Of a stretch of 64,000 bases of DNA, positions 512 to 31,591 are shown in pieces (position 1 is the stretch's first letter; each line of letters begins with the position of its first letter). The stretch is taken from NCBI GenBank assembly GCA_914767715.1, contig OU612074.1:14494062-14558061 (forward strand), read 5' to 3'. A model generated the notes under the pieces. The model was given only the letters and a program-made list of their open reading frames with translations, did not search any database and had not been told where the DNA came from. The translations under genes were made by a program, and so were the position numbers. Origin of the DNA: Membranipora membranacea (Eukaryota > Bryozoa > Gymnolaemata > Cheilostomatida > Membraniporidae).

Positions 512-592
512 GGTAAAACTAATTTACCATTAATTCTCCTCTTTTATCCGCGTAAGACAATAAATGTTTATAGACATTTTGTATTGTTGTAG

Positions 593-6190: not shown

Positions 6191-6237
<47 letters not shown>

Positions 6238-6370
6238 GTAAAAATCGATTGCCCTCGCTCATTCTCACCAAGTTTCCCTAAATCATGAGGAAGGCCTGGA
6301 ATGGCCATAACTTGTAGCCTTTGTTATCAATAGTGATAATGAAATTCTGTAATAAAAATGATATTCGATC

Positions 6371-8398: not shown

Positions 8399-8600
8399 GG
8401 TTAGCCTAGTGGTTATTGGGTTGGATCATCGATCTGGCGACCGGGGTTTGATTCCCGTGCATGTCCACTGGTGATACCTGAGAAGCCGAGTTCGGTAGGG
8501 TGTTCCAATGAGTACCAGCGCGTCATGCGATGTAGGTACTCATTGGTCAGGTCAGTGTTCACCGCTTAGAAGTACCCATAGCGGTATTTAAAAATCACTC
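8399..8600 (+). mobile_element. tRNA-headed SINE
   Basis: The head resembles a tRNA promoter: an A-box-like TTAGCCTAGTGG and a B-box-like GGGTTTGATTCCC about 40 bp apart. A non-tRNA body of about 130 bp follows, containing GTACTCATTGGTCAGGTCAG and ending in an ATTATTATTA tail. The D and anticodon stems do not form a clean tRNA, so a SINE fits better than a tRNA gene. Confidence 0.6.
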
Positions 8601-10263
8601 ATTATTATTATATATATCTTATTGATTCAACAAATGCCTCTTTTTACAGGCAAAAGGAGATACCAGTGAAACAGAAATGAAGTATTTACAGACAGAAAAA
8701 ATGAATTCTGTTGGTTTTTTTGTTTTTTGTTGTTGAGAATATGCAGTTTATAGTGCCAGCGAGTTGATTGTATTGTGAGGAAGGTTTAGTTGAGTTGGGT
8801 GTAGTATTATTATTCCTAGATTTATTTTGTGATGTGTCCACTTTGTATTCCAGGTAACTAAATTGAATATAAACACAATAATGTCGGCCTTTTACCCAAT
8901 CAATGATTTCTCCATCTACACTGATCTGATCTAATCATAATGAACATAATGACACAAAAAATACATAAACATGCAAGAAATGCACAAGCATCATTTTTGT
9001 ATGATGAATAAATGTGCCTCATGCACCCAAATTGAGAAAAAGACGCAAAGAGCCCTTGCAATTATTTTGATAAATGAATGAGACTCTCTTGCGAAAAATT
9101 TTGCATAGCTGGATTAAACATGAGAGTCTCAACCTCTGAATATGATACGTCAGCATTATGGTTGGCTGAGAAATAAGGTGAAAAAGCTCACAGACCTTAA
9201 TTTTTTTAGATGTATTATACATATTGGATAATATTTGCCTACTTACCCACAAAGAGGCAGCATTCTCTGAATCATGGCTCTACTGAAACATACAACGGCT
9301 TTGTCAGTAGCAAACCAGTACTGAAAACTCTATGAAATAAAAGTAAAGTCTTTTCTGAGTCAAGAAAAATTCTTATCCTTAATTATATATGATGATGTTT
9401 ATCATGATTTTAATGGTTCAGTAATTTTTGAGAATTTCTTATGACAAAAATCAAATTATCTTCATTTTAAGATGTACTGGTCACTAATGTGTCACATCTT
9501 GAACTTTGCCTACTAAGTTCATTTTTTATAGTTTGCATTTCAAAATGTTGATTAGGAGAATGAGAAATGATGGAGGCTGTGGTATATATAGCCCATACGA
9601 TGATATGAAGATTGGCTTTTGGATTAAGAGAAACTAGCAAACTTTTGGTTTATTTACGTTGTGAAAAACAGTATGTAAACACTTCATGATTTTGGTGAAG
9701 TAGATTATTATGTACATACTTGGCCATAGCTGTAACCAGTTACTTTATAAGGAAGGCTATTTTTACCAATATACCATCTCTGATCATAATCGTACTGACG
9801 CAACGCTTTCAAAAGATTAGGAGTAATCAAATATGTATCATCATCCCCAGCACAGAACCATTTATACCTACAACATATTTTACATACAACTTATGCTCAT
9901 ACAGGGTAGGCTAGTGCAGCTAAGAACCAGATGGGACCTTGAAGAACTCTGCGAGCATTTTAAAATGCCAAGGTCAGCTTAACCGGTTACCTGGCTCAAG
10001 GTAAAGAGAACAATCTGTTATTCACTTCCATTTTTATTAGTTTCCTCTCTATTTTACCTAACTAGTTGTCAGACATTTATTATTGCAGACAATTGTCAGA
10101 CAATTATCTGCCAGACAGTTAGCAGCATAAACATATTTATATGTTTATGGTTAGCAGTCTCATTTCCTGACATGACCATAGAATAACAACAAGATCCTAA
10201 GAACTGAGTTGAAAGTAGCGAGGTAAAAAATAGCTGCATACAAAAACTCTCTCAACGCAAACA

Positions 10264-10446
10264 GGGAGTCTTTCAATTAGAAGCAGCCAAAATTGCTCAG
10301 TCATTGCTGGAACTATATACATTCTGAGTGAGCAATTCGGGAACGAATTTGTCTTATTGAATCTCCAAGCGAGTGATCATTTTGAGCGATGTGATAGTGA
10401 TAAATTGCATTAATAAAGATTCGCTTTTTCTAATTGAAAGACCCCC
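10264..10446. repeat. MITE, CTTTCAATTAGAA family, copy 2
   Basis: Terminal inverted repeats GAGTCTTTCAATTAGAAG and TTTCTAATTGAAAGACCCCC bound a 183-bp element. The interior matches copy 1 (TATATACATTC.GAGTGAGC, TTTTGAGCGATG). It lies directly beside the F3 exon 10469-10528. Confidence 0.7.
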
Positions 10447-11284
10447 TGGCTAATCTAAGCATACCTACTTCTTTATCTTGCCGATCATTAGATTGTACGT
10501 TGCCTGGAACTTACACGCCAAATCTTGTCTGTAATGAGGACAGTTCTGTAGCAGATATCTTACAGAAAACGCAGAGGTGAAATGATTGTAAATATGAAAT
10601 GAAACATGGAAATATGGGCCTCGATTTATAACTAAGGCCTCCAGTGGAACAATCAGATTATCAAATACATGCAATTAAATATAGTATATATATATATATA
10701 TACATATACATATGATTAATAAATTAGAGAGAAAATGACCTGCTAAATAAATAAACTCTAACAATTGACTGGCATACTTGTCAATTGGTTATAATTATTG
10801 GTTAAACTATCTGGAATTCCTTTCTGATTTTAGGGTGTTCCAAGGTGTAGGTTGGTGTGTGGGCATCCTCTTTATAAGACACAGATATCTTTTTATAGAA
10901 TTCCCAAATAGATACTTAATATGCTGGCTCCAGGTGTGATTTGTGAGTTTTCATTTCCTGCACATCACATTCCTGATCTTATATTGGCACCCCACTTATC
11001 TTATCTCAATGTTCATGACACAGATATAATCCCTCTTCCAATAAGTGGTACTGGAGGATCTTTACCTGCTATGGGACGCTGGGCATTCGGTATTTATGAA
11101 TCTATCAGCACCTGTCAAAATATTTTATAGCTCAGTGATCCTGTCTAATAAAACCTATTTAGAAATGATAGGTGTCAATTTTTTATTCAGGGCCTGCGAA
11201 GGCGGCCAAATTGTTAATTAATCATGCAATAGTTTGAATTCAAAGTAATGTAAATGGATAAAGGCCTCTGTGTTCAGGACTGGG

Positions 11285-11346
11285 TTGCTCCGGGGGGGGG
11301 GGGGGGGCCGTCGGACAGGGGGCAAAGTCTGGGGGCTCAGACTAGG
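11285..11346. repeat. GGGGGCTCAGACTA repeat with poly-G
   Basis: A run of about 16 G is followed by GGACAGGGGGCAAAGTCTG and GGGGGCTCAGACTA. Nearly the same string occurs at 26448-26506, and the reverse complement of its end at 4604-4632. This is a dispersed repeat end; the full element was not delimited. Confidence 0.5.
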
Positions 11347-11802
11347 TTGCTCCCATGGTGATCACCCATAAGGCCACTGGATAAAAGGCCGCTTCCTATA
11401 AGGCCACTGGATAAAAGGCCACTGCCCATAAGGTAACTGGATAAAAAGCCTGCAACTTACCAAGACGTTAACTGAGTAAGGAGAGGAGAGAAACACACAT
11501 ACTAACCTACAAGCTGTGAGTATTTACTGTCCACAGCACCAGTCAGAATGTATGTCTACAAATAGATATAATATTACATTTATAATAATAACAATATAAT
11601 AATAATATTGCTTTATAACATTGTTTCAAAAACAAGGCGCTGTACAAAAAAGAATGATGAAATCGATAGGATAAAGTTGTAGTTTAAATAAAAAGTCACC
11701 ACTACTTGGATAAAACAGTGTTAACATGATACACCACATTTGAACGAAGGATATAATAGACATACATGCACCATTAAAACACACCACCTACTAAAACTAT
11801 GA

Positions 11803-12277
11803 TCCAGATCCAGGTCCAGGTCCAGGTCCAGGTCCAGGTCCAGGTCCAGGTCCAGGTCCAGGTCCAGGTCCAGGTCCAGGTCCAGGTCCAGGTCCAGGTC
11901 CAGGTCCAGGTCCAGGTCCAGGTCCAGGTCCAGGTCCAGGTCCAGGTCCAGGTCCAGGTCCAGGTCCAGGTCCAGGTCCAGGTCCAGGTCCAGGTCCAGG
12001 TCCAGGTCCAGGTCCAGGTCCAGGTCCAGGTCCAGGTCCAGGTCCAGGTCCAGGTCCAGGTCCAGGTCCAGGTCCAGGTCCAGGTCCAGGTCCAGGTCCA
12101 GGTCCAGGTCCAGGTCCAGGTCCAGGTCCAGGTCCAGGTCCAGGTCCAGGTCCAGGTCCAGGTCCAGGTCCAGGTCCAGGTCCAGGTCCAGGTCCAGGTC
12201 CAGGTCCAGGTCCAGGTCAAGGTCAAGGTCAAGATCAATATCAATATCAATATCAAGATCAAGGTCAAGATCAAGAT
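11803..12277. repeat. CCAGGT hexanucleotide satellite
   Basis: About 67 uninterrupted CCAGGT units run from roughly 11812 to 12217. They grade into CAAGGT, CAAGAT and CAATAT variants up to 12277. The array sits in the intron after the broken first exon of F3. Because the period is six, several frames on both strands stay open (QV, DL and TW dipeptides); these are not genes. Confidence 0.95.
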
Positions 12278-13250
12278 AATAACTACGGGAAACAGCCAAT
12301 GGGTTAGCTGTTGTTGGTGGGAGGGAGCCAATGCCACTTGCCAGGTCACTGAATGTACCTGTAACCACCAACCATACAGATCTGAACATGCACACCAGCT
12401 ACCCTGTAGGAGTAAAATATTTGCGGCAGAAAAAATTGACCATCACGGCAATGAAGACAAAACTAGTAATCCTTTAGTTTTGGAGCTAGGATCACACGCA
12501 ATTTGATATGAGACTTGGGTGTGATGTGACTTCAATTTGAATTAAATTTCAGTTTATCTCTTTTAATATCATGGATTCCTAAATTGAGAAATGGCACAAG
12601 ACAACGAACACAGAAATCAGCACCAAATTCAAACCAGAATTCCAGAGTTTGAAAAAGGTAAATTGTTGTTTATCATATACAGAGCATTCTGGTGGAACAA
12701 CAATCAGACATGAGTGCGGATTATACTCCTAGAGTGATCTCGAATGAAGTGTAGAGCCAGCCGATATCTTTGAAACACAACATGTTGAGCATAATTGTAC
12801 TGCAGTTGTGTTGTATCGGCTATATAACAGAAAACAGATAGCATAGACAGACAGATAGATGACACCTAGTGTCTTGAAAATTTTTTTATGATATTAATAC
12901 TTACAGATTGCTTTGCTTGAGGTATCCATGTATCCAGTAAGATTTTTAGTCTGGGTTCATGCAATTTTTTTGGTAGTTTTGATAGATAGCAGTATTTCTT
13001 CTATGTAAATATTATAGCTGCTGTCTGTCTGTTCAGATACCGACTAGTTTCCAGAGGCAGCTCGTGAATATGTATAATCCTGAAACTCTTTCAATGTCTG
13101 AAACTGGTTGACCATGCCATTCACCGTGCTGCCAGCACCTAGATTAGAAGCAGCACCATGAGAGATGAGGTAACTGTGCCTCACATGAGGGTAGCAGATA
13201 ATTACTGGACTGCTATGCAAGAGAAGAAAACAATCTTCTTCACATGGCTG

Positions 13251-16200
13251 CTGGTCTGCATCTTGCTGCTAGTTCTGATAGCCAGTTCACTGAAGCAGTG
13301 CATAGAAAATCTCAACCCTTACTCACTAATGAATCAATAGTAAATCAGTGCAGGGGGGGGGGAGGTTGGTCTAGCTTTCTTCTCCCTAACACAAACTTGC
13401 AAATATAAGGAAGTTTTAGAAACTGCCACGATTAAAACACCTAAAATTAAGCCTTTGATTGATGATACAGTTTGTCTGAGTATGCACTCTCTCTATACTG
13501 GTGTTCTTAGGGGATATCAGTAGAAGGCGAGCAACCTACTAAATTAAATCAGGATTTAACTTGATTCTGGTGGTAATGGGTGTGCGGGGGGGGGGGGCCC
13601 TGCGGATGAAAAGAAATATTTACGTTTTTGCTGAGAAATGATTTTTTATTGGTCAGATGGTATTTTTTATTATCAGCAGTCTGCAAGAATGCGAATTGAA
13701 TTTGTATATCGGGTTGGTACAAAAAATTGCTATCAATAACATTAAGTAAAATCTTAGAAAATGATTCCGAAGTGCTTTATTTCAATTGAACAATCTAATA
13801 TACAAGACTGATGACTGCGGAGAGTGTCTTTGGCACAGTTTGAGTTAAACAGACAATTCAATTTTCAACAGGCAATATATGTGGACAGGCCTAGACTTTT
13901 AATTGTAGTGTAATGACATCCGACAGATGCTGGAAATAACCTGGAGGGAGCTCAGAAATAGACTGACATTGGAAAATTGGAAGAACATTGGAAAACTTAG
14001 TCAGGCATTGGAAAACTTGGACGGACTTTGGACATAAATGGACGGACTTCGAACATAAATGGACTGATATTGCACAAATCTGAACTGATATTGGACAAAC
14101 AGCATGAAACTATGGACAGGAACAGGCATGAAAATTTGCCGACTGTTGCCCGGCAGACGAACATGGACAGACAAGATCTTAAGATGTACGGGTATTGACA
14201 TCATTTACTTGTCTGCTACGCACCTCAGTTAGCAAGGAATAGCTATGGATAATTGTCAAGTTGATCTAAATGACAATTAATAGCATTTGTGAAAAACCGG
14301 TAATGATGAAGTACCAACCATGATCCATGAAAGTCAACAAAGCTGCGAAAAATATCAGGCAAAGGTTTGTGGTCAAAAGTACGAAGTTGTCCTCTCTTAA
14401 CTTTTATCACTAAATCAATTTAAGTATAAACTTGATTTGTTTGTGTTTTAGCAAATTCAGGAGTAAAGGGTTAAAGTAAATTATGAGCATTCAATAAAGA
14501 ACACTTACATCCATCAATCATCCACTCCAAGTCTTTTGAAATGCAAGTGACAATAGGTCGATGTTCAGCATCAAAATAGTTTTCGGTGGGGTTACATAAA
14601 CATGGTAACCTAAAGATTGTGATTTCCCATTTAAACAAGGTCTGATGAATAGGTCAGGTTGGAGGGTGGCTGGCTACGGCTGGCAATGGTATAGGTTATG
14701 TACCCCACACAAGTGACCTGCAATTTAATGGGCCCGTTGAATATAGGGCAATCAAATAAAATGTAGTGGATAAATGATAATTTTGAATTTTAACTTACCC
14801 AACTATCAGAAAGGTTTCAATCAACTTGCAGTCAGCCCATTATTTTCAGATGCAGTCTATCGATATTGCCTGTTTATCCATCTTTTCTCTTTGGCAGTAC
14901 AATACAGGCACAGTACTGTCCAATCGTCAACAATGTCAATTAATATGGTTTGGTGATATTGTGTGCATGTCCAGTCTAATCTCGAAGTTTTTGAGGCTGC
15001 CAACTCAACATTAAGATTTAATGGTGAATATTGCACTCTCTTTATTATGTTTTTTTATTATTTTGTTTATGGGCGATAAAATATGCTTTGGTACGGATAC
15101 ACTTGATAAAGTTTCAGAGTTCTCGGAAATCCATATCCTCATGTTGTGTCTCTAGCTCATTTGATGCTCCAAAAGTGCCAATTCGGCAGTGTTTAACTTG
15201 TAGCCTCAGCCCTAAGAGCAAGATTGCAAATCCAGTTGTACCCATCACCACAAATGACAGCTAGGAACCGAGGCTGAGTGCAAACAAGATATGCTGATCA
15301 TGCTGTTGTCAGATCATAGTGCCGAAAAAAGTGTTTCTATTCAAACCATATTAAACCTTTGGAATAGCAATAATTGTAAGAATCAACAACAAAGTAAACC
15401 GCGGCATTGTGCCTAGTCTAATATTATCAAACTATACGCTTGCCAATTATGTAAAAAAAATACCTAAACTGCGATTCTCGTTTATGGCTTCCAAAAAATC
15501 TATCATGCTGCTGCAAAAGTAATTAAAAACCCAATTTAGCACTCACAAATTTCTAATCTGAACTCTCGCTGAACTTCTGCCTCCAAATATGGACCAAAAT
15601 TAATCGGCTTTACAGGTCAACCTGCACCTAACACAACAGGATTTTGGTCATTTTTTACCACTTAGTATTCAAAACATCAAAACATAAAAGATCAAGTGAA
15701 CGTCATCTGGCTCTATCGATTCAGTTATGTGTAGAAAACCATAGAGTCAAGATGTGAAAACCAATATTAACTAGGAATACACCAGAGGTATGTCAATTTC
15801 AACTTTTAATTCTGATTTAAACTCTAATTTTTCAATGGTATACATAATTTGAAGCTTATTGTTTTATAACTACATTGTAAATGAATATTCTTGGAAAAAC
15901 CATTTCAATTTCGTATTCGATAATTTGATCATAATTTGATTAGTGTTACTCATGTTTTTTAAACAATTACAGGTTTCACGACTTTAAATGGAATATCAAA
16001 TATTATGGATAACAGACAAACTAAAGAAATCGTAGTTCAGTGAACTTTGTCTAGATAATTCTATTTATAAGAGTTCTACACCTAACCCAAACGGCTAAAG
16101 TTCATAGATAACTTTATAATAAAGTCTCCCTCCACCTAACAAAGGCTGTGTTTGCCAGTTGTTTATGCTAACTAACACTCAATTGCATATTTATTTGCAT

Positions 16201-16393
16201 TTGCTAGGCCTAAGCTAGTGAAACAACTATTCATTCATACCAAACCTTATTGTTCAATGCTTTATTAAAAAATAAATTATTGAAAGGGGCAGTGAGTTTT
16301 TATTGACTGGTTCATTGTGAAGCACCATCAATAGTTACTGGGAATATTCATTGTCCAATGTTTCAGCTCGTGAACTATAAGACAAGCGGCAGG
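13251..16393. other. Intergenic: no gene recognised
   Basis: Separates the F3 remnant from first exon A. It holds poly-G runs near 13352 and 13585, and at 13950-14130 a run of irregular short repeats around GGACGGACTTTGGACATAAA and CATTGGAAAACTT. No splice-compatible conserved exon was seen. Confidence 0.5.
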
Positions 16394-16771
16394 ATGCAAG
16401 TCATCAACCTTATAAAAAAGCTCGTAATCTTCTCGATAGCACTGCTGGTCGTGCTTGTCATGTTTATCAGTTATCGTCATTTGAGACGCATCAACCTTCC
16501 TGACGCTGCTCCTACTCTTAGCAGTGTCGTTCATCTCGGCGCTGACCTTAAAGTGAATGAAATTATCAACAAGTTTCAAAAGTTGGAACAGTTTCAGGAT
16601 TACAAATACTCACGACCTACTTTGGATAACCAGTCGGGCTCAAAGCAGACAGAGGACAACTCTGACATTTACATCGAGGATATACTGATAACTATAAAAT
16701 CTACTAAAGAGTTTCATGAATCTAAACTCAAATACTTACTTGACACGTGGATCCCTCAAGCAAGGCAAACA
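16394..16771 (+). CDS. First exon A: Fringe-like membrane-anchor exon, candidate alternative start of F2
   Basis: Open from the ATG at 16394 (an in-frame ATG also at 16358) to a GTAAGT donor at 16772. It encodes a short basic cytoplasmic tail, a hydrophobic anchor (LVIFSIALLVVLVMFI), a stem of about 60 residues, and the start of the Fringe catalytic domain (IKSTKEFHESKL, then LLDTWIPQA; vertebrate Fringe has KTT.KFH..RL and LLDTWIS). This is the expected type II Golgi membrane layout. The donor is phase 0, which fits the F2 exon at 24274. No catalytic exons follow before first exon B, so it is either an alternative first exon of F2 or the surviving front of a lost copy. The reading frame has no lesions. 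Confidence 0.7.
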
Positions 16772-16989
16772 GTAAGTACCAATATTATTAATTTATATAA
16801 TGTGCTTTTTATCATTTTTACAGACTTTTGCGACATCTTAGTATTCAGTGCAAACTCCAAGATAACAGAGAAGACCTTTTGTTAAAGTAGAGGTATAGTG
16901 ATGTAAATTTGCTTCAATGGATTCCAAAATGCAAATATGTTTCCCATACGGTGATATTTTCTTAGATTGATTAAAGGTTGATTAAAAAT

Positions 16990-17222
16990 CGAATGTCGTA
17001 TCACACACCACGTCCCAAAACATGGGCGGCGAAATATTATTTTGCTTATTGGCAAGGCGCAATGTCTGCGCCAGGTCGCTCTCCGTTTACAGGCAGGTCG
17101 GAGCACACCTGGGGGGCCAACCAAACCCCAGTAGTGGAAAGACTGCAGTGGGATTTGAACCCACGACCTTCATCACCTACGTGTTGGAGGACCGGCCACC
17201 AACTGAGCTACCTCCTACTCCT
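16990..17222 (-). mobile_element. tRNA-headed SINE
   Basis: Read on the minus strand it opens with GGTAGCTCAGTTGGTGGC (A box) and then GTGGGTTCAAATCCCAC (B box with paired T-stem). A body of about 150 bp follows, rich in CGACCTG and GGAGAGCGACC motifs. The tRNA-like head is well preserved, but the appended body and lack of a clean acceptor stem point to a SINE. Confidence 0.65.
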
Positions 17223-18869
17223 TAGATGCCTCTACTAGTTATCTTTGAGGTAGAACAAGTTCAATGAGCACACATTTCCCTAGCTGGCAGCAGTAGTTTA
17301 AGATTCACAAAACCATCAGTAATATCATCAGACATTTATGCTATATTCTCTGTGATTGAGGCGACCCTGAAAACTTTTGTAGAGAATAATAGTCCTTGGT
17401 TATTGACCTAATGCAACTGGCGTGGAGAAGAAGGGGTGTTATAAGTTGGCATATCACACAATCTTGCAAACAGTGGTGATAAATATTGAAAATGTTAAAC
17501 ACCCAAAGCAACGATCAGTCCGACGTGAGTTGTTAGTGGAAGCCAACTCCGAGCAATCACAGCTGTGGGTCAGGGGAAAGGGGTGGAGCCCCTGCCGTCT
17601 ATGCAAACAGTGGCATTACTAAGTAATAAAATAAGGAAATCTACTAATCATTTAATTTTTTTGCTGGTAATGTTTCTGCAAAGGATTTGGGATTGAAATA
17701 TGAGGTCTTGAAATAACCCTTGACCCAACTTTCATTAGTGGACTCGACAACTGTTCATGAACTCGGACAGAGATCATGATTACAGCAATTCATTTTTAAA
17801 AAAATGATTTGTGCTGGATACTACAGAGCTAAGTTTGTATAGTAGTTTAGACTCATTGGAAAAATTGCTACCTCATCATACTTTTTGCTGCCAATCCCAG
17901 TTGTAAGTCACCTAAGCTAGATGCTGAAACCTCTTAACAAACCTGATTGAGATCAGTAATTTAATCTTAAATCTTAATTGCAGTCATGAGTAAATTGTAG
18001 AGTTAAGAGCCTTTAAACTAAGAAAGGCTGCAATGAAGACGAAAAATTGACTAAGTACTTTTCAAGTTAGTATTTCAGGCAGGATATAGTAATATAATAA
18101 CTTCAGATTAAGCCTCACATACTACCATTGTTAGCATAGGTCAATTCCATTCATAGAATTCATAGAATTATGAGGGACTTCCTCATCCGTCAAGCCGCTT
18201 AAAATATTCATAAAATATAAGGACATGACCTAAGCTTTGTTTGGATTTCATATCCAATCTGCAAATACTGCTGTCAAATTCCCATATGCCACATGTCATA
18301 TATGATGGATATGAAGAAGTTGTATTCCCTGATAAAGGAGAATTGCTCTTTACTACAACATGCGCAAGCAACAAGCGACTGTTTTGTAGCCCTGTGTTGT
18401 TGACAGTGACTAGCAAGGAAATATTGTTTTTAGATTATTCATTGAGTCAGCTTAATCTGAAAAAATGGGGTGCAATAAAGTGCCCTCACCAGTAATGTGG
18501 TTGATCATCAATTATTTAATGAATTTGTAAGGGCTTGTACAGTACATATCAATACATACCTCTTAGATATGCAGGGGGGGGGGGGGCGACAATCTATATA
18601 TCGATACAGTGTTTTTACCCAGACGTTCTATAAATTTTTTTCGGTGAAAAAACAGTACACAAGCACTCCGGAACTAACTGCCTGACTAACTGACTATATA
18701 ATGCTTTTATTTGGCTCGGGTAGCCTTTAATCATGATGCAAATAGTGAAATCATCTCCAGATAAACAAAAAAAGCTTGTCGTGGCACTTCTGAATAAATT
18801 TATTGGTAGTTTGACAGAAGGGCATTTTAATTTCAATGAGAAGTTTTTTGAAAGCATATTATCACTATC

Positions 18870-19030
18870 ACATTGCTCAAAACTATTGCTCACTCGGTCT
18901 TTGAATTAATCATGATCATTCCAATTTTCTTACTCAAAATGTTCCATCGATAAGTGAGCAGGTCTCGCTCACACACTAAGGGAACGATCGATAGTGATTT
19001 TGGCAGTTTTCTAATTGAAAGATCCCCCTG
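18870..19030. repeat. MITE, CTTTCAATTAGAA family, partial copy 3
   Basis: The right end (TTTTCTAATTGAAAGATCCCC) and the internal CATTGCTCAAAAC and TTGCTCACTCGG stretches match the elements at 6371 and 10264 in a rearranged order. The left terminus is not clear. Confidence 0.45.
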
Positions 19031-19796
19031 GATCCTTTGCCTCGTTCTCTGTGTCTCTGTGTATTGATTCCTGGTGTGGCAATCCACATTTGAAGCTACA
19101 TTACTAAGTATGAATATTTAAAAAGATCATTCAAAAAGGAAAAGTGTAACTGTGAACAACCCTATATATCCCATTTAAATTACACTTTATCAAGATTGCG
19201 ATTATTAGATACTCTTGAGAGAACCTAAAAGTCAACATTTTTTATTTCTGAGGAATCTAAATTCATCTTGTCATTGTCCTGTCCTGCAATTCAAATTGAC
19301 AATTGACCCGTGCTATTCTTGACCTCACGATGTTTGGTCTACTCTGAAAATGGTAGAAAATGTTATATACTGATGGACCTTGATAAATGCCCTTAGAATG
19401 GCTCACACTACCCAAGATGCCCTCAGGTTGACTCAGACGCCCCAAATATCGTACTATCTTGAGAGAAGACTGCTTTTTCTGACATTTTGTGCATTTGTAT
19501 CAACAATACTATTTTCTTACCATTTTATTGCATGCAAGGTGACTTCACGATTTTCGCAAGCAGAGTTTTTGTACCGGCAACATTTTTCTTAGAAGTTAGT
19601 GATATCAATACAATCAATCAATTTCAATCAAACATGCCACCTGCCATAAGGCTGGTAGCGCTAGTAGCGGCTGATTAAGTGGATGATTATTTATAATTTA
19701 CGGTTGGCTACTGGTGGGATTTCCTCATTCTCCCGAAAACACTGTGAAGTGATCACAGAGCTTCAATATTCACTAGTCTTCAGGACAATCAGGAAC

Positions 19797-20171
19797 ATGA
19801 TGCAGCCAGCAAGCATGAAGAAGATCGTTTTGATTGCTATAGTAACCCTCGTTGGGCTGATCGTCTTTTTCTGCTTTCCTCTCTCACAGCACAATTATCA
19901 GGATTCTCGTAACTTTGTTCCTGAAAAGATCGGTAGCATTCATTTCAGCGCTGCTCTTACAGTGAATAACACTTTTAACGGGTTAAAAATGTTACGCAAA
20001 CAAACATATTCAAACCCTTCTCTCAACAACCGGTCATTCTCCCAGCAAGCAGACAACAGCTCTAACATTAACATAGAGGATATACTAATATCCATCAAAT
20101 CTACTAAAAAATTTCATGATTCGAAGCTCAAAATCTTACTTGATACATGGATACCTCAAGCGAATCAATCG
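19797..20171 (+). CDS. First exon B: Fringe-like membrane-anchor exon, candidate alternative start of F2
   Basis: ATG at 19797 (a second at 19815) and open to a phase-0 GTAAGT donor at 20172. Layout: short basic tail ending in MKK, hydrophobic anchor (IVLIAIVTLVGLIVFFCF), a stem with SFSQQADNSSNI shared with first exon C, then IKSTKKFHDSKLKILLDTW of the catalytic domain. The bases before the start (CTAGTCTTCAGGACA) resemble those before first exon C (CTAGTCATCAGGACA), so the two probably share a promoter ancestry. No further Fringe exon follows before 22834. Confidence 0.72.
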
Positions 20172-22833
20172 GTAAGTTTAATTATGATATTATTGCTTTT
20201 CCCAAGAATCTAGGTGTTATCTAGATGAGTGATATGATTAATCTGAAATACAATCAATAGAACAGGCAGAAGAATTAATCCAACTCAGCCACCTTCAATA
20301 CATTGCGTTACTAAGTTATTTGCAGAGTATGACGTTCTCTTTCCACAATCATTTGAGATAGTTGTATGAGGATCCGCATGCCTCTTATCTTGCTGTTCTG
20401 ACGAGTAGATGTTGACCTACAGTACAACCTATAAGAAGACGTAGTACTCTTACTCCAATCATCGCTCTAGCTTTGCTATTTTTTGTTGTGATTTTTTGTG
20501 CTCCTTTGCGTTTATCGTGATTGGTAGTGTTGGAAAACTCAGTGGTCAAAGTCGGGGTTTTCCCCAAAGGCTTCTTGAAGAAGGGGGGGGGGGGGGGGAG
20601 TTCTCTTCAAGTCATAACATCCCCACAATAATTTATTCACTGTGTATTTTGCAACACATGTCACCAGTGTTATTCTGGAAATCAATCCAAGGTGTGTGGT
20701 TGAGCACTTATTTGGTGATCTGGCACCTTTTATGTCATGCATTGATTGGGGTCCCAAAATCCGCCTTCAAGAACTTGTTTGACTAAAGTTTACAAGGCTA
20801 CATATATATATATATAAATATATATATATATATGTATATCAGTGGTCTACACCATCAGGTTGCTGCTATGCGGCTAATTCTTTTGTTTATGCTGAGCAGC
20901 CGTTTATTTGACATTCAAATATAGAAAAAAGACTAAAAAACTGTTGATTGCTACTAAAATTTGACATAAAAAATTTGAAATGGTTTTGGCTGTCTTTGGG
21001 GCTTGGCTTTTGTTGGTCTAAAACTAGTGGCTATACATGCGTTAGAAGTGCTACTATTAAAAATGGATGAGAAGCATCGCTTGCTCTTCTGGAATCTACC
21101 TATCTATCTATCTACTAAAAACAGTGTCACATACTATATAAGATGCCATTGCTGCAATGATATACAAATATAGCAGTAAAGTAGGAATATTTAAAGAGAT
21201 CATTGAACCAGGAAAAGTGTAGCTCTACTAGGAACAACTATAATACATCTCATTAAATTATAATCTATCAAGATTGTGGTTATTATATTGTTGATTGATA
21301 CTGGTGAGAAAATCTAATCGTAAAGATTATTTAATTTCCGGAGAATCTCAAATAATCATCTGATTTTGCCGTGTCTTGTGATTGTGTGTCCTTATGATTT
21401 CTGGCCAGTAAATGTAAAATATTAGAGCTCACTTTGATCATGCCACACATGCAATATAGCTGTATACCCATTTATTGCATCCCCATATAAGCGGTCAGCA
21501 CCAGGATCTAAAATGTAGAAAGGCAATTCATTGGAAAGTTTTAGATGTTTTGATTGGTAATTATGTTGCATGTGAATTATCTAAATCCAAAATTATTCCC
21601 AACATTTGTAATACTTGATGCAAAATTTCAAAGAATTCACACTATTTCAAATTGATGCAATAGTGACACCAGAAATAATCTGGAACCTAGAAGGACTACC
21701 AGTGGGTGATGGAAATAATTGACATTATTGAATCAATAGGTTTGCAGGAAACCAGAATTTCCAGGGCTGTCAAAACAAGATTTCAATCAACCAACAAGAT
21801 CAGTTTTCTTCAAATGACTGGACACTAAAAGCCAGAATCGTGATTTTGTAGTTAAGAGTATAATTGTGTATTGTATAATGATAATCGTGGTAATCACCTT
21901 CGCTGCCCCATCCCATCTCCCTATATTTCTACTGGTAGGAGCACTTCAGTATATTGTCTTTAACAAATTTCACAAGTGGATTTGGAACCAAAGGGCCACA
22001 CAGCTTGTACAGCATAGCCTACAAAACCTCATCAGAAAATCTGTCAATGTAGGTCTCCAAAATTTATATTTTACACTTCAAGCTTCATAGCCATGACAAG
22101 ATGATGAAAGATAATCTTTCTCAAAATTGGTCTCTCAGGATTTGATGACGATCATAAGGTTGTGTCATAATCAAAGTTTCACAATGGCTAGTATCCAGCT
22201 CCAGTCAAAAGTGGTTGGTAAGGAAGAAATACTGAATTTTTTAGTATAATAACTAAATGAATTAACTAATCACAGCCACAGAGCTATTTAGGAAATATGT
22301 AGGGTGGCTGATTACCAGACCCGATAAAATACAATAAGGCAAGTTCAAGGCTTCGCATATTTGCTATTTGAAGCAGGTCGATTGCCATTATCTTGAAGGC
22401 TAACCCTACACCTCGTATCATTGGAATCGATGCAATTGCTTTGAATGTTACTCCGGTGCTTTAAAATCTTCCTCTGAAATAGTTGCCAGTGAAACATTTG
22501 GTAGTGTTCATAAAACTTGCCACTGCTCTAGTTTGGCCACAATACAAAAATTGGTTATGTTACAAATATTGATCATTTCTTATCATCTATCATCTATCAT
22601 CTTATCATTTGTAGGGCAATGATGCATTAATTACCCTCAAATATTCAGCCTTGTGTCTTGTTCATAAATGTGTTACTGCTCTTGTCTGGTTGCAATAAGT
22701 AAATTGGATATGATACAAAAAGTGATAATTGGTTATCATCCTTTTATTTAGGGTAATAATATAATAATTACACTCAAATAATCAGCCTTGTGCAGCCATA
22801 TAGATATTACTAGTCATCAGGACATGCAGCAAC
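20172..22833. other. Between first exons B and C: no gene recognised
   Basis: Holds a poly-G run at about 20583-20599, a TA microsatellite at 20801-20835 and otherwise unrecognised AT-rich sequence. No catalytic Fringe exon was found. Confidence 0.5.
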
Positions 22834-25800
22834 ATGATGAGAATGAAGGAGAAAGTTGTTTTGTTTGCTTTAGCGATCTGCATCGGACTGTTAGTCTATA
22901 TCTGCTTTTCTTCCTCTCAGCGCAGCTACCTGGTTCCGCTTGGCTCTGTTCCTGATATAATTGGTTGCTTTAATTCCAGCACGGAAATTACATTGAATGG
23001 CACATTTGACCAGTTTCCGATGTTAAAAGAGAAACTGTCATATTTACACCCTTCTCTCGACAACCAGTCATTCTCCCGGCAAGCAGACAACAGCTCTAAC
23101 ATACATATAAAGGATATACTGTTATCTATCAAAACTACTAAAAGATTCCATGAATCAAGACTTAAAATCTTAATTGATACATGGATACCTCAAGCAAATC
23201 GATCTGTAAGTATTATATGATTGCTTTTGTCAAGAAGTAGGAGTTATCAGCAACTTTAGTGACCACCGGGTTGAGACCGGACATCCGAGGTCTGTGGTGG
23301 ACCATGCCAGTCAGCGTAGGTGGCAAAAACTCCCGAGAGCAGAGATTAATATAGATGTAGAATCGCTTTTCCAATCCATCGTTCTAGCTTTTCTCTTTTC
23401 TGGTTAGGATACTATAATAGTGTGAACACTCATTGTTCAGTAAATAATTTGATTATGAGTCCACACATTGCTAGTCTACACCATCACATTGCTGCTGCAT
23501 GTCCTTCTTGTATATGACACCAGTATTATTTGTATCTTGTCGCAATGCCTCAATTATTTAATAATATCACAGAGTAAGAATATACAGAGGGGACAATTCA
23601 ATGATAGTTATAGTGCCTGTGGTTTTCATTCACATATTCTTATAGCCTATGTATCCTAGCAAAAAAATGGCTATAATATGGTGTATAGCTTGAAGGTTGG
23701 AAATTCCAGTAAAGTTGGAAATCAGTCATCTTAGATTTTGGGAAAAATTTCACACCCCCACTTCTACTCAATAGTATAAAACTCAGCTTTTAAACTTTTA
23801 ACTTGGATTTTGCCCCTAAGATCCCCGACACATGAGAGGATACATACAAAAAAAACTCAATTTTTCTTGCAAACCTTAAACTGTATTAACAATAAAAAAA
23901 TCAGATAGATGTCATTGCTGTCATGGCAGAAAGAAAAATGTGTTGTGAAAATAAAAGTAAGAATAATTTTGAGATCGAGAGACTAAAATGGAGTCGATTG
24001 TTCAGATACGCAAGGCTGATTTGACTCTCAATGAGTGCGTGCAAATTTAAGATGTGCTTCCCTCAGTTTGACACAAGTGAGAATGCCTCTGATATATGGC
24101 ATTTTCCACAGAATTTGACTACTTAACAACCACAGCATCGGTTTTTCATTACCTCAATAATGATAGATTGGGCATTGTACTTGTACATTCCCCATTCCAG
24201 CCAGTGTTGAAACCAGGAAGCAAGATTTTAAGAGATATTAATTTAAAGCTTAGTTTTCTCTCTCTATTTTTAGACGTACATTCTGACTGATGCTGTTGAC
24301 AGTAAATATTCACAGCTCCTAGGTAAGTATCTTTCTCATCCTGATTTTTCACTTTATGTTATTTTGGATCTTCTGAACTAACAATTTGCGAGCATGACTA
24401 CAAGCTGTCAACAAAGAATCTGCCAACACATTGTTGACAAATTGTCTTCCAGCGTAACTAATTGTGGCAGCACTTGAATTCTTAAAAAGTGAGGTGATTT
24501 ATTCTCAACCTGTTTCACTACAAACATCGTTTAGTTTTCAATATGACCCACAACAGCTTTGATAACTTTCAGTATCAGTTAGTTGAAAGAGTACGTTGGC
24601 TGAAAGTAAGCAACAATAAACGATTACGCCTTATAAAGCAGTACACATATAGAGAACAAATTAGTACAAAATTATTTTCGAACAAATATTGCCTCAGCTT
24701 TTTTCGAAAATGTTATAGTCTACAAAACATAACCACCACACCCTTGGAGAGTTAAACTAGTCACTCACCGCATTCCTTATTTGACAGGCGCTGACAAGTT
24801 GATAAATACTGGATGTCCGGCATCACACGACAGGTGAGATCGATATACACCGTGAACTCCTAGCTTTCTTAATGATTATCCTCGGAACAGAAGCATCTAC
24901 TAGTCAGGTAGCTGATGCTGCTGCCGCTTAACAAAATTTTACAGAGAAACAGTACTTGAGTTAAAGTTTTGAGTTATAAGTTGTTGGGTGTGTTATAAAT
25001 CGTCTCCTCTTTAGAAATGATGCCCTAGTGAAGGCGTGAAGTGAGGAGTTTTCTCTGTTGTACAAGCTCTTGTATAAGGTCTCCTTAAAATATTTCTGAA
25101 AACAGTCAATTATACCGTGGTGAATTTCAGTCTTTACCGTGATGATAAAATAATTATGTCAAAGTTCAAACGTTATTTGGCTTGTAAACCCGAGTCCACT
25201 TAATGCACACATTATTATCACACAAAAATTCTAGTGTTTTCCCTGGTTTCGGTTTGTACAAGCTTCAAAGCTTTGCGCTGCCACAATATTGCATAAATAC
25301 AGCCCGACTATGAATCTGTCTGCTATAAAACCTCTTTTGATTAACATTCAGTGAATGATGTGATGCACTGCTTTTCCAAGTCCAAATACCCATAGCACTA
25401 ATGCTTGACCCTATAGCCCTATTAATTACCCATACCCCCCTGGTATCACTTAGTTTATCAATGCTACAGGAACATATTATTTCATAGAGATATGCAGTAC
25501 TTTGTGAGTCTCAGCTACTGTAAATACCTGCCCTATGAATAAATGATGAATTGCCTGACAGTGCTATACCAGGAATGTCTGTTTGACAAATGTTTTGAAC
25601 TTGAATTTCAAAATTTTCACATGCACACACTCATGAGTAACACTGGAGCTAACTCCTATTGATCAGTGTTTGTGTTACAGTCACCCTTTCACCCTTCAGT
25701 ATGTCTCAGTTCAGAAGTATTTACCGATATTTCTCCTTGGCGTTCTGTGACATTATTTTGATACACATATTTTCTTTTTGTAGGAGAGATCTGGCGTGTA

Positions 25801-28800
25801 AGTTCCAAGCGATGTACGATTTATCTATCAGTAATATAAAGAGGTACGTACTGTAAGATCAGCCTGTAGTAACAATGGTAAAATATACTGGTTTAGAGGT
25901 TAATAAATGAAACTCATATATAACAGTTTATTACTCAATCTGAGCATTAATTATGTCAAATGTTCAACAAGTTTCTTTCAATGTTAATATTAATCTTGGT
26001 ACCCTTGCCCAAACCACCCGCTGCCTAATGGATAGAAAAAACCCTTCCTCCCTTCCCTTCATCTTGATAGGCCCGCTTCAAAAACTCAAACTAGACAACT
26101 TAGAATGATAGTGTGTTTCTGCTCTTCCATATTTATGACTATCCGGTCATTCGGTGTTCAAATATTTCTTTAGTGCTCACATATATAAAACCTCTGCATT
26201 TCTTTACCCATATCCAGTCTCTGTTTCATTAACTGCTCTGTATGGATTGAAAATCAACTTTTTTTCCAGATTGTTCAAACCCTAATTCAATATCTTCATG
26301 GTAAAATCACCTGCCAACTATCACTCATAGTAGAACTATTGATTTGGCTGCAGTTTGAATTTTCCTCATTAATAGTTCATACTAATCAGTTTTCTTGCAA
26401 GAGGTTCGACAGGTTTATTACCATAAATTCTTAAGTGTGGTAACCATGGGGGGCCGTTGGACAGGGGGCAAAGTCTGGGGGCTCAGACTATGCCACTAGT
26501 TGACCTTGATCTTAACCGAAGACCTCTGCACCGATTTATGGTGTGGTGTTGATCATCGCAGCAAGACCCTTTGTATTGCACTAGCCTATCTGTATAGCAA
26601 GAAAACCTTCCCATAATGTTACATATAATGTATGTGTTTTAGGTATAAATGGTTCTGTGCGGGTGATGATGATACATATATAGTTATTCCTAATCTTGTG
26701 AATACGTTGCGTCAGTATGATTACAATCAGACATGGTATATTGGTAAAAATAGTCTTCCTCACAGGCTGGAGCGGAAAGCACATGGCAAGGTAGGAGAGC
26801 TTCATTAATCTACTGTACTGACATTTTGAAACCAACCTTCACAGTTGTCCTCACTCTTTCTTGGTTGACTATGATTTGGCATTATTAGAAGGATCTAGGT
26901 CTAGCAAGACAAACATGTCTGACAGGTCAGCATGGTGATAAAATTAGTTAGGAGCTTCCTGAAAACATGTCGCAATGCTTACATTAAAATATGTGTGGGT
27001 AATACTAATTCTTCATGGATAACTATAAAGGGTAAACTGCCCAGTCTGCCAGTTTTAATTCATCATCTCATTATTTTTCATCCCAATTACTAATGGCATA
27101 CATGTCATGTAGCGCCCTCATTTTGTCTACTGGAAACTTGTGCCAATGCTTATAGGGTCATTGTTGGAGAAGAAGCAACTCAAAATTCAAGCCAATTGAA
27201 GCAAACCCATTTCACCTCTGAACCTGTTTGCAAGCTGAAAATATAATGCTATAGTGTTTACGAAAGGAATAAACAACCACTGTTCATATAAAAGTAATAT
27301 TATGCGATGAACAAAAAACCTAAGTTTGCTCGCATGAGGACATTATTGAATGATATAAACAATCTCGATTTGTGAATTGTGGTCATTTCTGGTGAAAGCT
27401 TAGCAGCCTGGTCAGTGTTCTAGGCAAATCAGGGCTAGGCTTACTGCTATACGGAGACTGGATCATCATTTAAATGTAAATCTGTAGCAGGGGAGATAAC
27501 ATACTCTAGACCCTTTTAGAAACTGGGCTTTCTCACTTAGAAATCGGTTATATCATTCAATGATGTCCTTGAGCAAATAACTTGAATTTTTTTTCGTTGT
27601 TTTGAGAATGCTTTGGTATGAACATTGGTGGTTTTCTGCTTTCCCAAATACTTTAATATAGTGTCTCATTGAAATCAACATTCGAATAAACAATAGTAAA
27701 GAAAAATTATATTGAAGCTTCCTATAAATTGACATAATACTTTTCACTTTTTGTAACACTTTTATCGGCAGTGATTTCACTTGTCACTATTTCTTTAAAT
27801 TCTCAAGTCACACTGCTCTGTTCATCCCGCAATATATGCCATACTGTTAAAAGTTTGAATTTCTACTTAGTTCATTGAACAACAGAATATCATTTTGTTT
27901 TATAGAAAGTTGAGTTCTGGTTTGCGACTGGAGGAGCTCTTGTATGTTTCAGTAGAAGGATGATCCAGGCAATGCAGCCTCTATGTGGGTATGTACGGTC
28001 ATATAATGATAAGCTGTACTGTCCTCTTATGTATGTTATACCAGATCGATGGGTTTCACCTACTCTCTGTCTATCACTATGAGGGGTGAACATTCTTGGA
28101 GAGTGAGATTTACAGCTGATCATGCAAAAATGAGAGCTAATCATGCTAATGTGAATACTTTCATTGACAAGTCCCATGCATGTAAAGTTGGCTGGGCTTC
28201 ATTCATACTGCCCACTCAACATGGGGGTTCGAAAACATGTAAGCCTCCCCTTGGGAATGAGAAAGTGTCCCAGCTGCTGAACCATTTGTTCATGTTATTT
28301 AGGGAATTGGGTATTGTTATTGAGAACTGGACATCACACTGTGACATCACAATGTGTTCTTGTTGACAACCCTGTACAGTTGCAACACACAAGCATAACA
28401 TATCATAGAAAGATTTTATGTGCAGAAGTGAGATGTTGATAGGACCATCTGGTAACACAGTATGACTAGCCCGAATATCTGGTGTCAACCTATGCAATAT
28501 GAGTACTTGTGATGTATGCTCGGACTAGACAATAATTGTGTCTCTATTCAGCATCGTAACAACACCCTACATCCATGAGAAGACAACTACTTTGAATAAC
28601 AATATTATTATCAAAAACACATTTAGCATTCTATGGGTGATAATAAAAGTTTGGTGGTCTGATGGCCAGGTCCCTAAAATATCTTTAGAGTATAGAATAT
28701 GCATTGTTATAATGTTCAATAGATTCTTGGTAGCATATGTCAGCTTAGGAGATAACAAGGAACTTTGTTTCAGCTTTTTATTTTAGAGCTGTGAAGGCAT

Positions 28801-31167
28801 GTTAATTTTTGGAAACCTTGTGAGCTTATTTCTTCTCAATTGATCTGAATTATCTTACTGTATTGTGAGGATGATAAACGTTGGGAACCTCTTCAATTGT
28901 TTGTTTTTTATAGTATTCATGGTGAGTAGTCATTACACAACATCTGTATATGTTGCTAGTTTGCAAAATCTATTTTCACAGATCAGGAGGTTTTATAAAA
29001 CGAGCTGAAGAGGTAACTGAACCTGATGACACGGCTATAGGATATATCTGCAGTGAGTACTACAGAGAGTAGTCATCGCAGTTAGTTATGACCTCTCCAG
29101 CTTGTGTTATGTACATTGCTGTATATCAAAATGCCGTTTTAATCCTGACTAGAAATGACCCATTGTGCAAAAAGATTGTAATGGCAGGTTTCTTTAGAAA
29201 AAATTTCACCCAATTTGCCTACTGTCTGAGGATCTTATATTCCACTGATGAGCTGGTACCCATTGCTGGCACAGGCAAATGAGTTCATCATTTTATTGTC
29301 TTTTGGTAGTAACCTCCCTTGACCATTTACATATGTCACAACTAGTCTTGTCATGTTGCTACCTTTTTTGCTATGTTCTAAAATTGGATTGTGTAGTAGC
29401 AATGATGCTGTCTTTACAGTCCGCATTCAAGGTTTTTCGTTGATAATTGGATCGATTTTGATTATTAAGATTGATTTACACTCAGCAGGATTTTCTTATC
29501 AATTCCATGTTGTTTTATCTTTTAACAAACAATTCAAGTGAGCACTAATATTAAACTGACCACTGCAAGCTGCTAAATCTATCCCAATTTTGAGATTCAA
29601 AATATTAACAAAATTGCTACAGTTAACAACGAACAACCTGGTATGCAGACTTCAAGTCAATGATAAAACCAATGCTACTGCACAACGTCAACAGGAATTA
29701 AATACCTCAATTCCTCAATGCTAAAGCTCCATATCTGTTTGTCATATCCTGTCTAGGTTCAATAATAAGTCTATCATAGACTTATTATTGAAACCTGTAC
29801 AATGTATGATGTGTTCAAAGAATCTGTGCTATACTTATTCATTGTGTCATCTCTTTCTGTACAGATTATCTGCTAGGAGTCAATCTTACAGTGATACCAG
29901 AGTTTCACTCCCATCTGGAAGCCATGTTTCTAATCGATCCTGCAGATTATCATAAACAGGTCAGTATCTGTAACAAATAGAATAAAATGATATAAAATAA
30001 ATTAAACTAAACTAAACTAAACTAAACTGAACTGAACTAAAATAAAATAAAATATGATAAAATAAAATAAAATGAAATAAAATGAAGTGGAATAAAATAA
30101 AAAAAATTAAATTAAAATGAAATAAAATAAAATAAAATAAAATTATTTTAAATAAAATAAAATAAATCACTGTACAAACCTAAAGTGATTGAAAATTGTG
30201 TATTCTCAGATGACAACTGTGAGATATTACAAGGCTGCTTCGATTGCACAGATTGGGATGTGTTGATCGATGCCAATGACAATATCAATCAGCAAGTTGA
30301 AGTTCTTACTGGATATATTAATTACTGAACCGAACCGAACCTCATTAACAAAAAAGCTATATCAGAACAGCAGACCTTGGGTTAATGGATACGATACATT
30401 TCTAAAGAGCTTATCAAATCTAAAAAACAATACGCTCAGAAAATGGAAAACAATTATCAAAAAACCCAGCCAAAGCTCTGCGTGATGTTAAGAAAATGGG
30501 TTTCAGTAGTTTCGTTGAATCCTGTTTTTTCTATTGTTTACTAGTCATGTTTACCAATTTATATGATAGAGACATCAAGTCAATCCGTAAAGTATACAAA
30601 ACTGCAAGCAGCTATGGCCTAGAGAACTGTGGTTTTGACTGCATTGTCAAAGATAGAATGAACTCCTTCATTAGCCACATACAGAAAGATGAACACCATC
30701 CTTTCCACTCATTCTTGACTAAACTCCGATCTGGAAGGCTGCAATCATACCAACATCAAGCAGCAATCAGTAGTGACAGCTTTATACGGCATTTTATAAA
30801 TGTCTGCAATAATTCCAGTAAACGCTAATACAATGTTTTATTTTAGTTTGTATCATTGCTATTTTTTTATTCAATTACTTTTTATCATTTGAATCTTTTA
30901 GTTTTTTAGTCATCAGCGGCAAATCCATATATCATTTCACTATATTATGTATGTATGTACATGTATATGTGTGACAACGAATTAAACCAAAAAAAAACCA
31001 AACCAAAAACAAACATTTTTAATGAATATCTGCTGTTTTCGTTCAGGTCACTGTGAGCTACAGTGCTGTTACTGGTCGGTATCCCAATACATTACTCATA
31101 AGGGATGAAATAGAAAAGTTCACCAGAGAGCAAGATCCTACAAGGTATAGTTGTCAACTCTGTTCAC

Positions 31168-31199
<32 letters not shown>

Positions 31200-31591
31200 A
31201 TATCTCATTTACAGGGCTTACATTGCTACAAATATACAGAGCATGCCAATGTGCTCTACTGAGTTGGTGCTGTCACTAAAACTATCACCTACGATTTAGG
31301 GAGCTTTGTCTTCTTTTCTAGGTTGATACATGGTAGGCTGAATCAACCAACATCTTCTTCATCATGGCATGCAGAGTTAGTTTTTCGTAAAAGCATGCAT
31401 CTCTAAAATTTACAATGAGAATTTTGCTGCTATTTTAAAAATCTCCCCACCTTACTTTGATGTTTATTCGTTGCAGGTTATTCAGTTTACACTGTTTCTT
31501 ATATCCCAAATCTGAAGAATGCAGGAAATTCAAAGCGCAGCTGGAGAAACCGTCGGTACCACCTAGTCAGAATGGTGTGAAGGTAGCATAG
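22834..31591 (+). CDS. fng-like: F2: complete Fringe-like beta-1,3-GlcNAc-transferase
   Basis: Ten exons: 22834-23205, 24274-24322, 24788-24833, 25784-25843, 26643-26790, 27906-27988, 28982-29052, 29865-29959, 31047-31144 and 31477-31591 (TAG). They sum to 1137 nt, 378 residues, the usual Fringe size. In order: type II anchor VVLFALAICIGLLVYICF, stem, IKTTKRFHESRLKILIDTW, TYILTDAVD, NTGCPASHDR, DLACKFQAMYD, KWFCAGDDDTYIVIPNL (acidic metal/UDP-sugar motif), WFATGGALVCFS, EPDDTAIGYI, IPEFHSHLE, DPTR and LHCFLYP. All junction phases agree. The likely role is GlcNAc transfer to O-fucose on EGF repeats in the Golgi lumen. First exons A and B lie upstream and are splice-compatible. The 29960-31046 intron carries an AAATA repeat and a LINE remnant. 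Donor specificity cannot be read from the sequence; other GT31 activities remain possible. Confidence 0.88.
26448..26506. repeat. GGGGGCTCAGACTA repeat, second copy
   Basis: GGACAGGGGGCAAAGTCTG followed by GGGGGCTCAGACTA, matching 11310-11345 almost base for base. It lies in the F2 intron before the DDD exon. Confidence 0.5.
29756..29795. repeat. 40-bp near-perfect palindrome
   Basis: TCAATAATAAGTCTA and its complement meet at a TCA/TGA centre. The flanking CCTGTCTAGGTT matches the arm sequence of the large fold-back element at 51.6-54.4 kb, so this may be a minimal derivative of it. It lies in an F2 intron. Confidence 0.6.
30000..30170. repeat. AAATA/AACTA microsatellite
   Basis: Pentanucleotide tract in the F2 intron. 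The inverted equivalent (TTTTA units) is at 58436-58490 in the matching F4 intron, so it predates the F2/F4 duplication. Confidence 0.8.
30190..31015 (+). mobile_element. LINE remnant, internally deleted
   Basis: The first part reads, with stops, like the linker between the endonuclease and reverse transcriptase of CR1/L2-type LINEs (a DWDVL motif, then a spaced YIN, then an altered PWV-type segment). It then jumps to a C-terminal tail with an RMNSFISHI and a HPFHSFL..LRSGR pattern, typical of the end of such ORF2 proteins. The reverse transcriptase core is missing. It ends in a CA/A-rich tail near 31010. It is absent from the matching F4 intron (58253-58500). Confidence 0.6.

Follow-up and report, generated by a model that had tools for sequence, protein, structure and literature searches.

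On chromosome 10 (C10) of the bryozoan Membranipora membranacea, the gene we call F2 is probably a single Fringe gene whose three first exons are tandem duplicates used as alternatives, each of which would be spliced in phase 0 to exon 2 at 24274. Fringe is a sugar-adding enzyme that tunes Notch signalling. The choice of Notch ligand is set by Fringe, and the effect should depend on the position of Fringe along the secretory path. We propose that each first exon supplies a start codon, a short tail, a signal anchor, a stem and about 36 catalytic residues, that any of the three could be spliced in phase 0 to the common exon 2, and that one catalytic cassette would in this way be displayed on three N-termini. 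Coordinates are given within the window, which is the whole 64,000-nucleotide stretch of contig OU612074.1 that was analysed, unless another prefix is shown.

Three first exons and one catalytic cassette

First exons A (16394..16771, 126 codons), B (19797..20171, 125 codons) and C (22834..23205, 124 codons) lie on the plus strand, and the initial annotation, which had described three intact first exons beginning at 16394, 19797 and 22834 with a start, an anchor, a stem, a common end and a GTAAGT donor, proved exact in its coordinates. In all three the reading frame is uninterrupted from the ATG and runs through an anchor and a stem into the edge of the catalytic domain; A reads as tail, anchor, stem and first part of the catalytic domain. 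The exons end in LLDTWIPQA (A and B) or LIDTWIPQA (C), with GTAAGT next in phase 0. Pairwise identity is 46% for A/B, 36% for A/C and 55% for B/C, with E values of 5e-25 to 6e-40 that are far beyond chance. A predicted signal anchor was found in each, with a best 19-residue hydropathy window of 2.67, 2.96 and 2.79 for A, B and C starting at residues 7-10, and the exons carry one, four and five N-glycosylation sequons, respectively. RHLR and RR sit C-terminal to the anchor in A and are absent from A', its counterpart in a second array described below. The stems and anchors of A, B and C have diverged while their frames remain unbroken, as had been noted at the outset, unlike the first exon of the neighbouring F3, which has stops and a frameshift.

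The F2 cassette (24274-31591, plus strand) consists in our gene model of nine exons: exon 2 (24274..24322), exon 3 (24788..24833), exon 4 (25784..25843), exon 5 (26643..26790), exon 6 (27906..27988), exon 7 (28982..29052), exon 8 (29865..29959), exon 9 (31047..31144) and exon 10 (31477..31591, stop included). All have AG acceptors and GT donors, and the cassette is intact through its terminal stop. Conceptual joining of A, B or C to the nine exons yields a complete protein of 380, 379 or 378 amino acids, respectively. The C form matched the Pfam Fringe profile PF02434 (GT31) at 6.7e-72 and 242.3 bits (cut-off 21) over profile positions 2-250 of 250, and matched the solved manic fringe enzyme with an E of 2.9e-53. 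Exon 5 contains the sequence GDDDTY, which aligns with the DDD of manic fringe chain 2j0a and which we take to be the DDD metal-binding motif. The Pfam match in the C form begins at residue 89 of the 124 in the first exon, and the manic fringe alignment begins at residue 90. Each first exon is therefore predicted to open the catalytic domain as well, with about 36 of its residues, and the catalytic edge, which is strongly constrained, would swap together with the anchor and stem. The earlier description of the first exon as tail, anchor and stem only, with catalysis unaltered by the swap, has to be abandoned on this point, since about 36 residues at the end of exon 1 belong to the catalytic domain.

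A single catalytic set from 24274, with none among A, B and C, had been claimed, and a relic search agreed with this. Neither strand of 15001-24270 yielded a catalytic relic by tblastn with three catalytic queries (best E 0.67), and exons 2 and 3 used as single-exon queries in the same interval gave no match at E 0.5. As a control within F2, the F1 and Bugula queries, which run from exon 4 on, recovered seven exons each with E values of 5e-22 to 0.004.

F2 is part of a Fringe cluster of about 117 kb, which was delimited by a Pfam search of the genome and an exon-by-exon search of 143.9 kb of joined sequence. From left to right the order is F0 (+), F1 (+), F3 (-), F2 (+), F4 (-), F5 (-) and F6 (+). 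F0, F1, F6, the copy on chromosome 8 (C8) and the dead F3 have a single first exon each. Exons 4-10 of F1 (about 591..5565, plus strand) are all open, and its single first exon is outside the window at L012:652-1002. F3 (about 9240..13268, minus strand) is a pseudogene and the mirror of F6, with a single broken first exon; its exons 7-10 were sought in 5561-9240 without a convincing match (best E 0.076). No tRNA genes were found within the window.

The Pfam-model search covered a genome copy of 339,339,785 bases in 18 contigs and returned 23 matches, with 20 in the cluster, two on C8 and a single weak one on C4 (E 9.5e-5), which at 30% identity to exon 5 seems to be an enzyme more distantly placed in the superfamily. 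With the cassette as query, all 39 matches in the genome fell in the cluster or the chromosome 8 gene (45 of 45 first-look candidates scored), and the same was true of the 12 matches to exon B (13 of 13 candidates scored). It had been asked whether catalytic exons for A and B exist elsewhere in the genome. Because the Pfam, cassette and exon-B searches, apart from the weak C4 match, all led back to the cluster or the C8 gene, they revealed no orphan cassette that might be assigned to A and B.

Among proteins, MFNG of Bugula neritina was the nearest named protein among the 39 matches listed and the nearest bryozoan protein in the best 120 of 302 matches. Searches of 5.8 billion proteins, one listing the best 120 of 302 matches, another scoring the 7,994 candidates with the greatest word overlap and a third giving 39 matches, yielded no spliced product of M. 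membranacea. The sole database match identical to the genome, P0121, is the F1 first exon continuing into its intron, and since the frame reads on in this way we regard P0121 as genomic or unspliced.

A mirrored array and selection on the first exons

Each of the pairs F3-F2 and F5-F6 sets a single-first-exon gene head to head against an array gene, and the two pairs are the arms of an inverted duplication. F5, on the minus strand, carries A'-B'-C' followed by a full and intact cassette, with its last exon 37 kb beyond that of F2. A' (L014:8962-9339, minus strand) is 86% identical to A at the amino acid level and B' (L014:5550-5933, minus strand) is 79% identical to B. C' (about L014:3587-3916, minus strand) retains its ATG and frame, but a stop interrupts the frame early and the 3' end is gone, including the donor. 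In a tree of nine first exons, built from their DNA by maximum likelihood, the two arrays pair exon by exon, with support of 100/100 for A/A', 98/96 for B/B' and 91/91 for C/C', the last of which falls short of the 95 mark. This pairing indicates that the array predates the inverted duplication. In the same tree the closer neighbour of B and C is the F6/F3 exon and not A (87/87, which is not strong), a hint that the array may have acquired exons from the neighbouring gene.

The recurrence of the array as a diverged mirror copy makes assembly misorder very unlikely, and this objection, which had been named as one that could undo the initial reading, is answered by the same A-B-C order in the second array. 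A wider version, in which assembly misplaced or collapsed the catalytic exons belonging to A and B, might be favored by the richness of the region in near-identical repeats. Besides the diverged mirror copy, it is opposed by the absence of an orphan cassette for A or B in the searches above, by the identity of F4 as a partial F5 duplicate on the other strand, and by the quality of the assembly, tzMemMemb1.1, which combines HiFi and Hi-C data and has a contig N50 of 7.0 Mb over 339,374,674 bases in 21 scaffolds (PMC10290214). We give such an artefact next to no weight.

The mirror arm also bears on whether distant first exons are used. C', the first exon nearest to the F5 cassette, is dead while the cassette beside it is intact, and if F5 is expressed it must therefore be served by B' or A', which lie 3.6 kb and 7.0 kb upstream of F5 exon 2. 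Of the indirect evidence that remote first exons would splice to the cassette, we consider this the strongest, and by extension A, B and C would each splice to 24274.

Comparison between the arms gave a dN/dS of 0.25 (0.14-0.44) for A/A', 0.26 (0.14-0.46) for B/B' and 0.08 (0.04-0.14) for the F2/F5 cassettes. For the dead-exon control C/C' the ratio is 0.96 (0.55-1.79), and C' has two stops in frame among its aligned codons; the dead control F6/F3 gave 0.54, with a wide interval of 0.20-1.78 and one in-frame stop. Counts of synonymous and nonsynonymous changes, which were rounded, differed from those of C/C' by Fisher's test (A, p 0.006; B, p 0.012), and purifying selection on A/A' and B/B' since the duplication is supported by these codon comparisons. 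Split by branch, the changes in C/C' number 10 synonymous and 17 nonsynonymous for C, and 3 and 31, respectively, for the dead C' (12 ambiguous, p 0.011). A parsimony split assigned 3 synonymous and 6 nonsynonymous changes to A, 4 and 9 to A', 7 and 14 to B, and 13 and 8 to B', with 18 ambiguous sites for A/A' and 13 for B/B', so that too few are resolved and the split is weaker than the pairwise ratios. Local non-coding sequence, in an alignment of 3,699 bases, has diverged by 9.1% substitutions and by 0.0081 frame-shifting gaps per base; at these rates frame, ATG and donor would all survive by chance with a probability of about 0.007 in A and about 0.009 in B.

These results weigh on the suggestion that A and B are leftovers of tandem duplication whose catalytic exons were deleted, that C alone is used, and that A and B are open by chance or because they are recent. 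Tandem or inverted duplication and decay are indeed frequent locally (F3, C' and F4), and no product of an array transcript was among the proteins searched. However, A, A', B and B' have the ratios given above, retain ATG and donor and contain no frameshift or stop, whereas the true relic C' shows stops, a lost donor and a dN/dS near one, and in F5 it is the proximal exon that has died. We judge the leftover explanation improbable. The initial proposal that A, B and C are alternative first exons for one enzyme is instead strengthened by the mirror array, the tree pairing, the purifying selection and the failure of the genome searches to find another cassette, and it stands as probable for the N-terminal choice, with the catalytic edge now included in the swap.

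Synonymous and nonsynonymous changes among the first exons, a comparison that had been called for, also separate parts of the exon. For B/C within the arm, dN/dS is 1.07 (0.61-2.04) in the stem and 0.18 (0.06-0.51) in the catalytic edge, from which we infer that the edge is constrained while anchor and stem are drifting or diversifying; with a stem ratio of about 1, part of the B/C divergence appears to be relaxed or diversifying. Over the 39 codons of the catalytic edge there is one nonsynonymous change each in A/A' and B/B', although synonymous changes too are few, at 2 and 4. This bears on a further possibility, that A and B are made by donor read-through as separate short, non-catalytic membrane proteins that act as decoys or Golgi partners. 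The frames do continue beyond the donor, to 16885 in A and to 20213 in B. Yet the part of the exon that is most conserved, within the limits of those few synonymous changes, is the edge by which the catalytic fold is completed, and all five living exons of both arrays retain the phase-0 GTAAGT donor, so we hold this possibility to be very improbable.

Identity between the arms is higher in the A-B intergenic sequence (92.1%) than in exon A (89.4%) or exon B (85.3%). A tract at 17030-19280, in which 11 of 15 steps of 150 bases reach at least 94% and the remaining steps 90-93%, is probably a conversion tract between A and B, and the B' stem contains a C-like patch in the alignment. Because of both, dates of divergence are unsafe and exon dS is not a clean clock. 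The dN/dS ratios should be less affected by conversion, since the sites compared lie in the same exon, though living paralogs could donate functional changes.

Choice of first exon and of terminal cassette

Two arrangements could present alternative first exons to one cassette, separate transcription starts or a shared untranslated leader, and we compared them by scoring splice acceptors upstream of the first exons. In A, A' and F1 a TTTCAG precedes the ATG by 27-38 bases, with scores of 5.0, 3.7 and 6.5, respectively, and the same TTTCAG scores -2.9 in F6. Within about 130 bases upstream, the score is -0.3 for B and -1.7 at best for B', and C scores 4.3 at -82. For reference, 32 of 34 cassette acceptors score at least 2.9, the 34 including two damaged F6 sites, and AG sites with a score of at least 4 occur at a chance rate of 3.6 per kb. 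No good splice acceptor was found within about 130 bases before B or B', and those of A, A' and C are borderline. Because B and B' lack a good acceptor while the cassette acceptors score well, separate transcription starts appear likelier than a shared leader exon, and each first exon may have its own promoter.

If A, B and C were instead picked by mutually exclusive splicing from one upstream promoter with a shared untranslated exon, as in Dscam1, an acceptor would be expected before each alternative exon, which is not the case for B and B'. The TTTCAG sites before A, A' and F1 favor this arrangement with modest scores, but the values in F6, B, B' and C compare poorly with those of the cassette, and AG sites scoring 4 or more are to be expected by chance at the rate given above. 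We therefore think mutually exclusive splicing unlikely.

The mirror arm holds a further cassette. F4 (57781..62825, minus strand) is a partial tandem duplicate of the F5 cassette with exons 4-10 only, without exons 1-3, and the copy starts in the middle of F5 intron 3 and continues some 1 kb beyond exon 10 (F5, C10:14568617 to 14562012). In the 6.1 kb upstream of F4 we found no homologues of exons 1-3 and no anchor (ATG frames of at least 35 residues, best hydropathy 1.58). F4 exons 4-10 are open, and F4/F5 dN/dS is 0.09 (0.02-0.20). Since the F4/F5 split, F4 has acquired 6 synonymous and 1 nonsynonymous changes and F5 9 and 3, with 2 ambiguous, so that the apparent conservation of F4 depends on 7 assigned changes. 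Exons differ at 21 of 670 positions versus 242 of 4,663 in non-coding sequence (p 0.008; p 0.02 for the F4 branch alone). F4 may be a second terminal cassette for A'/B' with exons 2-3, or a young copy that has not yet decayed. We put forward only tentatively, as a doubtful possibility, that in the mirror arm A'/B' and exons 2-3 are joined to F5 exons 4-10 or, skipping those, to F4 exons 4-10. Together with three first exons on one cassette in the other arm, this would make a small combinatorial Fringe set of N-terminal and catalytic modules, suited to adjusting Notch according to cell or zooid type.

Known variable-first-exon genes and the meaning of the array

The layout of F2 is best read as that of a multiple-variable-first-exon gene of the GCNT2 or UGT1 kind: it has similar tandem first exons in the same phase and a single downstream constant set, and its first exons are maintained by selection with birth and death (A/A' and B/B' constrained, C' dead). 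In the F5 arm the constant set is likewise single, but the extra F4 exons 4-10 come after it. In human, mouse and rat, GCNT2 (IGnT) has three similar tandem variable first exons; each encodes a transmembrane segment, all are served by one constant set, and the copy number depends on the lineage (PMC1885805). GCNT2 belongs to another enzyme family, and its constant exons number two, compared with nine in F2. UGT1 also has tandem variable first exons, one constant set and exon birth and death (PMC1885805); its variable exons encode the acceptor-recognition domain, whereas those of F2 encode mainly anchor and stem, with about 36 catalytic residues. Arrayed 5' cassettes precede constant exons in chelicerate sDscam, where promoters were tested with reporters at both cassettes of one gene (PMC4835542), and clustered protocadherins have arrayed 5' cassettes ahead of constant exons, as in F2. 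Unlike F2, clustered protocadherins and sDscam are adhesion receptors with bigger arrays and ectodomain diversity. Human B4GALNT2 has alternative first exons, 1S and 1L, that alter the cytoplasmic tail, and the long form gains a post-Golgi location (PMC9959560). Both forms share an identical anchor and luminal domain, unlike the forms of F2, and the consulted portion of that account describes no tandem array of homologous exons.

LFNG, MFNG and RFNG, fly fng and Bugula MFNG are of the same enzyme family as F2 and have the same domain. In the portions of the open-licence literature consulted, no first-exon array of a Fringe gene was found described. To our knowledge, no earlier Fringe gene has multiple variable first exons.

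In bryozoan colonies a single genome gives rise to several zooid types, and we found little in the literature on the Notch machinery of bryozoans; a study of lophotrochozoan Notch genes names Fringe and bryozoans once each, in the introduction (PMC8166818). The mirror array with its one dead exon offers a clean natural test of first-exon function. We suggest that M. membranacea probably makes the same Fringe enzyme with different membrane anchors and stems, and that exchanging the N-terminus may affect secretion, timing or Golgi residence in what is predicted to be a Notch-modifying GlcNAc transferase. With anchor and stem exchanged on one catalytic unit, selection and the cell could tune location and secretion largely apart from catalysis.

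Apparent exchange between arms and among first exons

The Fringe gene F2 and its mirrored copy F5 lie in the two arms of an inverted duplication, and each carries an array of three first exons (A, B and C in F2; A', B' and the dead C' in F5). When the non-coding DNA between A and B (17030-19280) was compared with the mirror arm, identity ranged from 90 to 99% per 150-base step, far above that of most of the arm; this stretch is likely a gene-conversion tract. The mid-stem of B' (L014:5550-5933) is 76% identical to C vs 69% to B, as if the first exons were swapping patches.

A partial and a possibly decaying Fringe copy

F4, on the reverse strand (57781-62825), conserves Fringe exons 4-10 and lacks exons 1-3; this copy is a tandem duplicate of part of F5. 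One of its introns holds an RVT_1 reverse-transcriptase fragment (60132-60533, reverse strand; match 4.9e-9). F6, the single-first-exon copy past F5, is open in frame. However, where AG would be expected, the acceptor before its exon 2 (L015:4017-4065) ends in TG and the one before exon 4 (L015:5225-5284) in AT, so F6 may be a recent pseudogene.

Repeats and neighboring frames

Tandem copies at 35008-37676 and 41260-43563, which are 94-96% identical in two blocks, have a PAN match as well as F5/8 type C (discoidin) matches under the Pfam cut-off, and an additional F5/8-like frame lies at 50351-50686. A 381-385 base unit (62987-63752 and 49254-49642; ~97% identity) recurs in the F5 arm at C10:14565216-14565600 and is a mobile or satellite unit. 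The F3 pseudogene contains, in one of its introns, 71 repeats of the hexamer TCCAGG at 99% identity (11803-12230); the long six-frame ORFs at this place appear to be artefacts of the hexamer array.

The exon 1 boundary in relatives

In four first-exon-like frames from assemblies of relatives (P0122-P0125), IPQA is followed three residues later by VS, which is like read-through into GTAAGT-type donors. The exon 1 boundary thus seems to have been retained in relatives.
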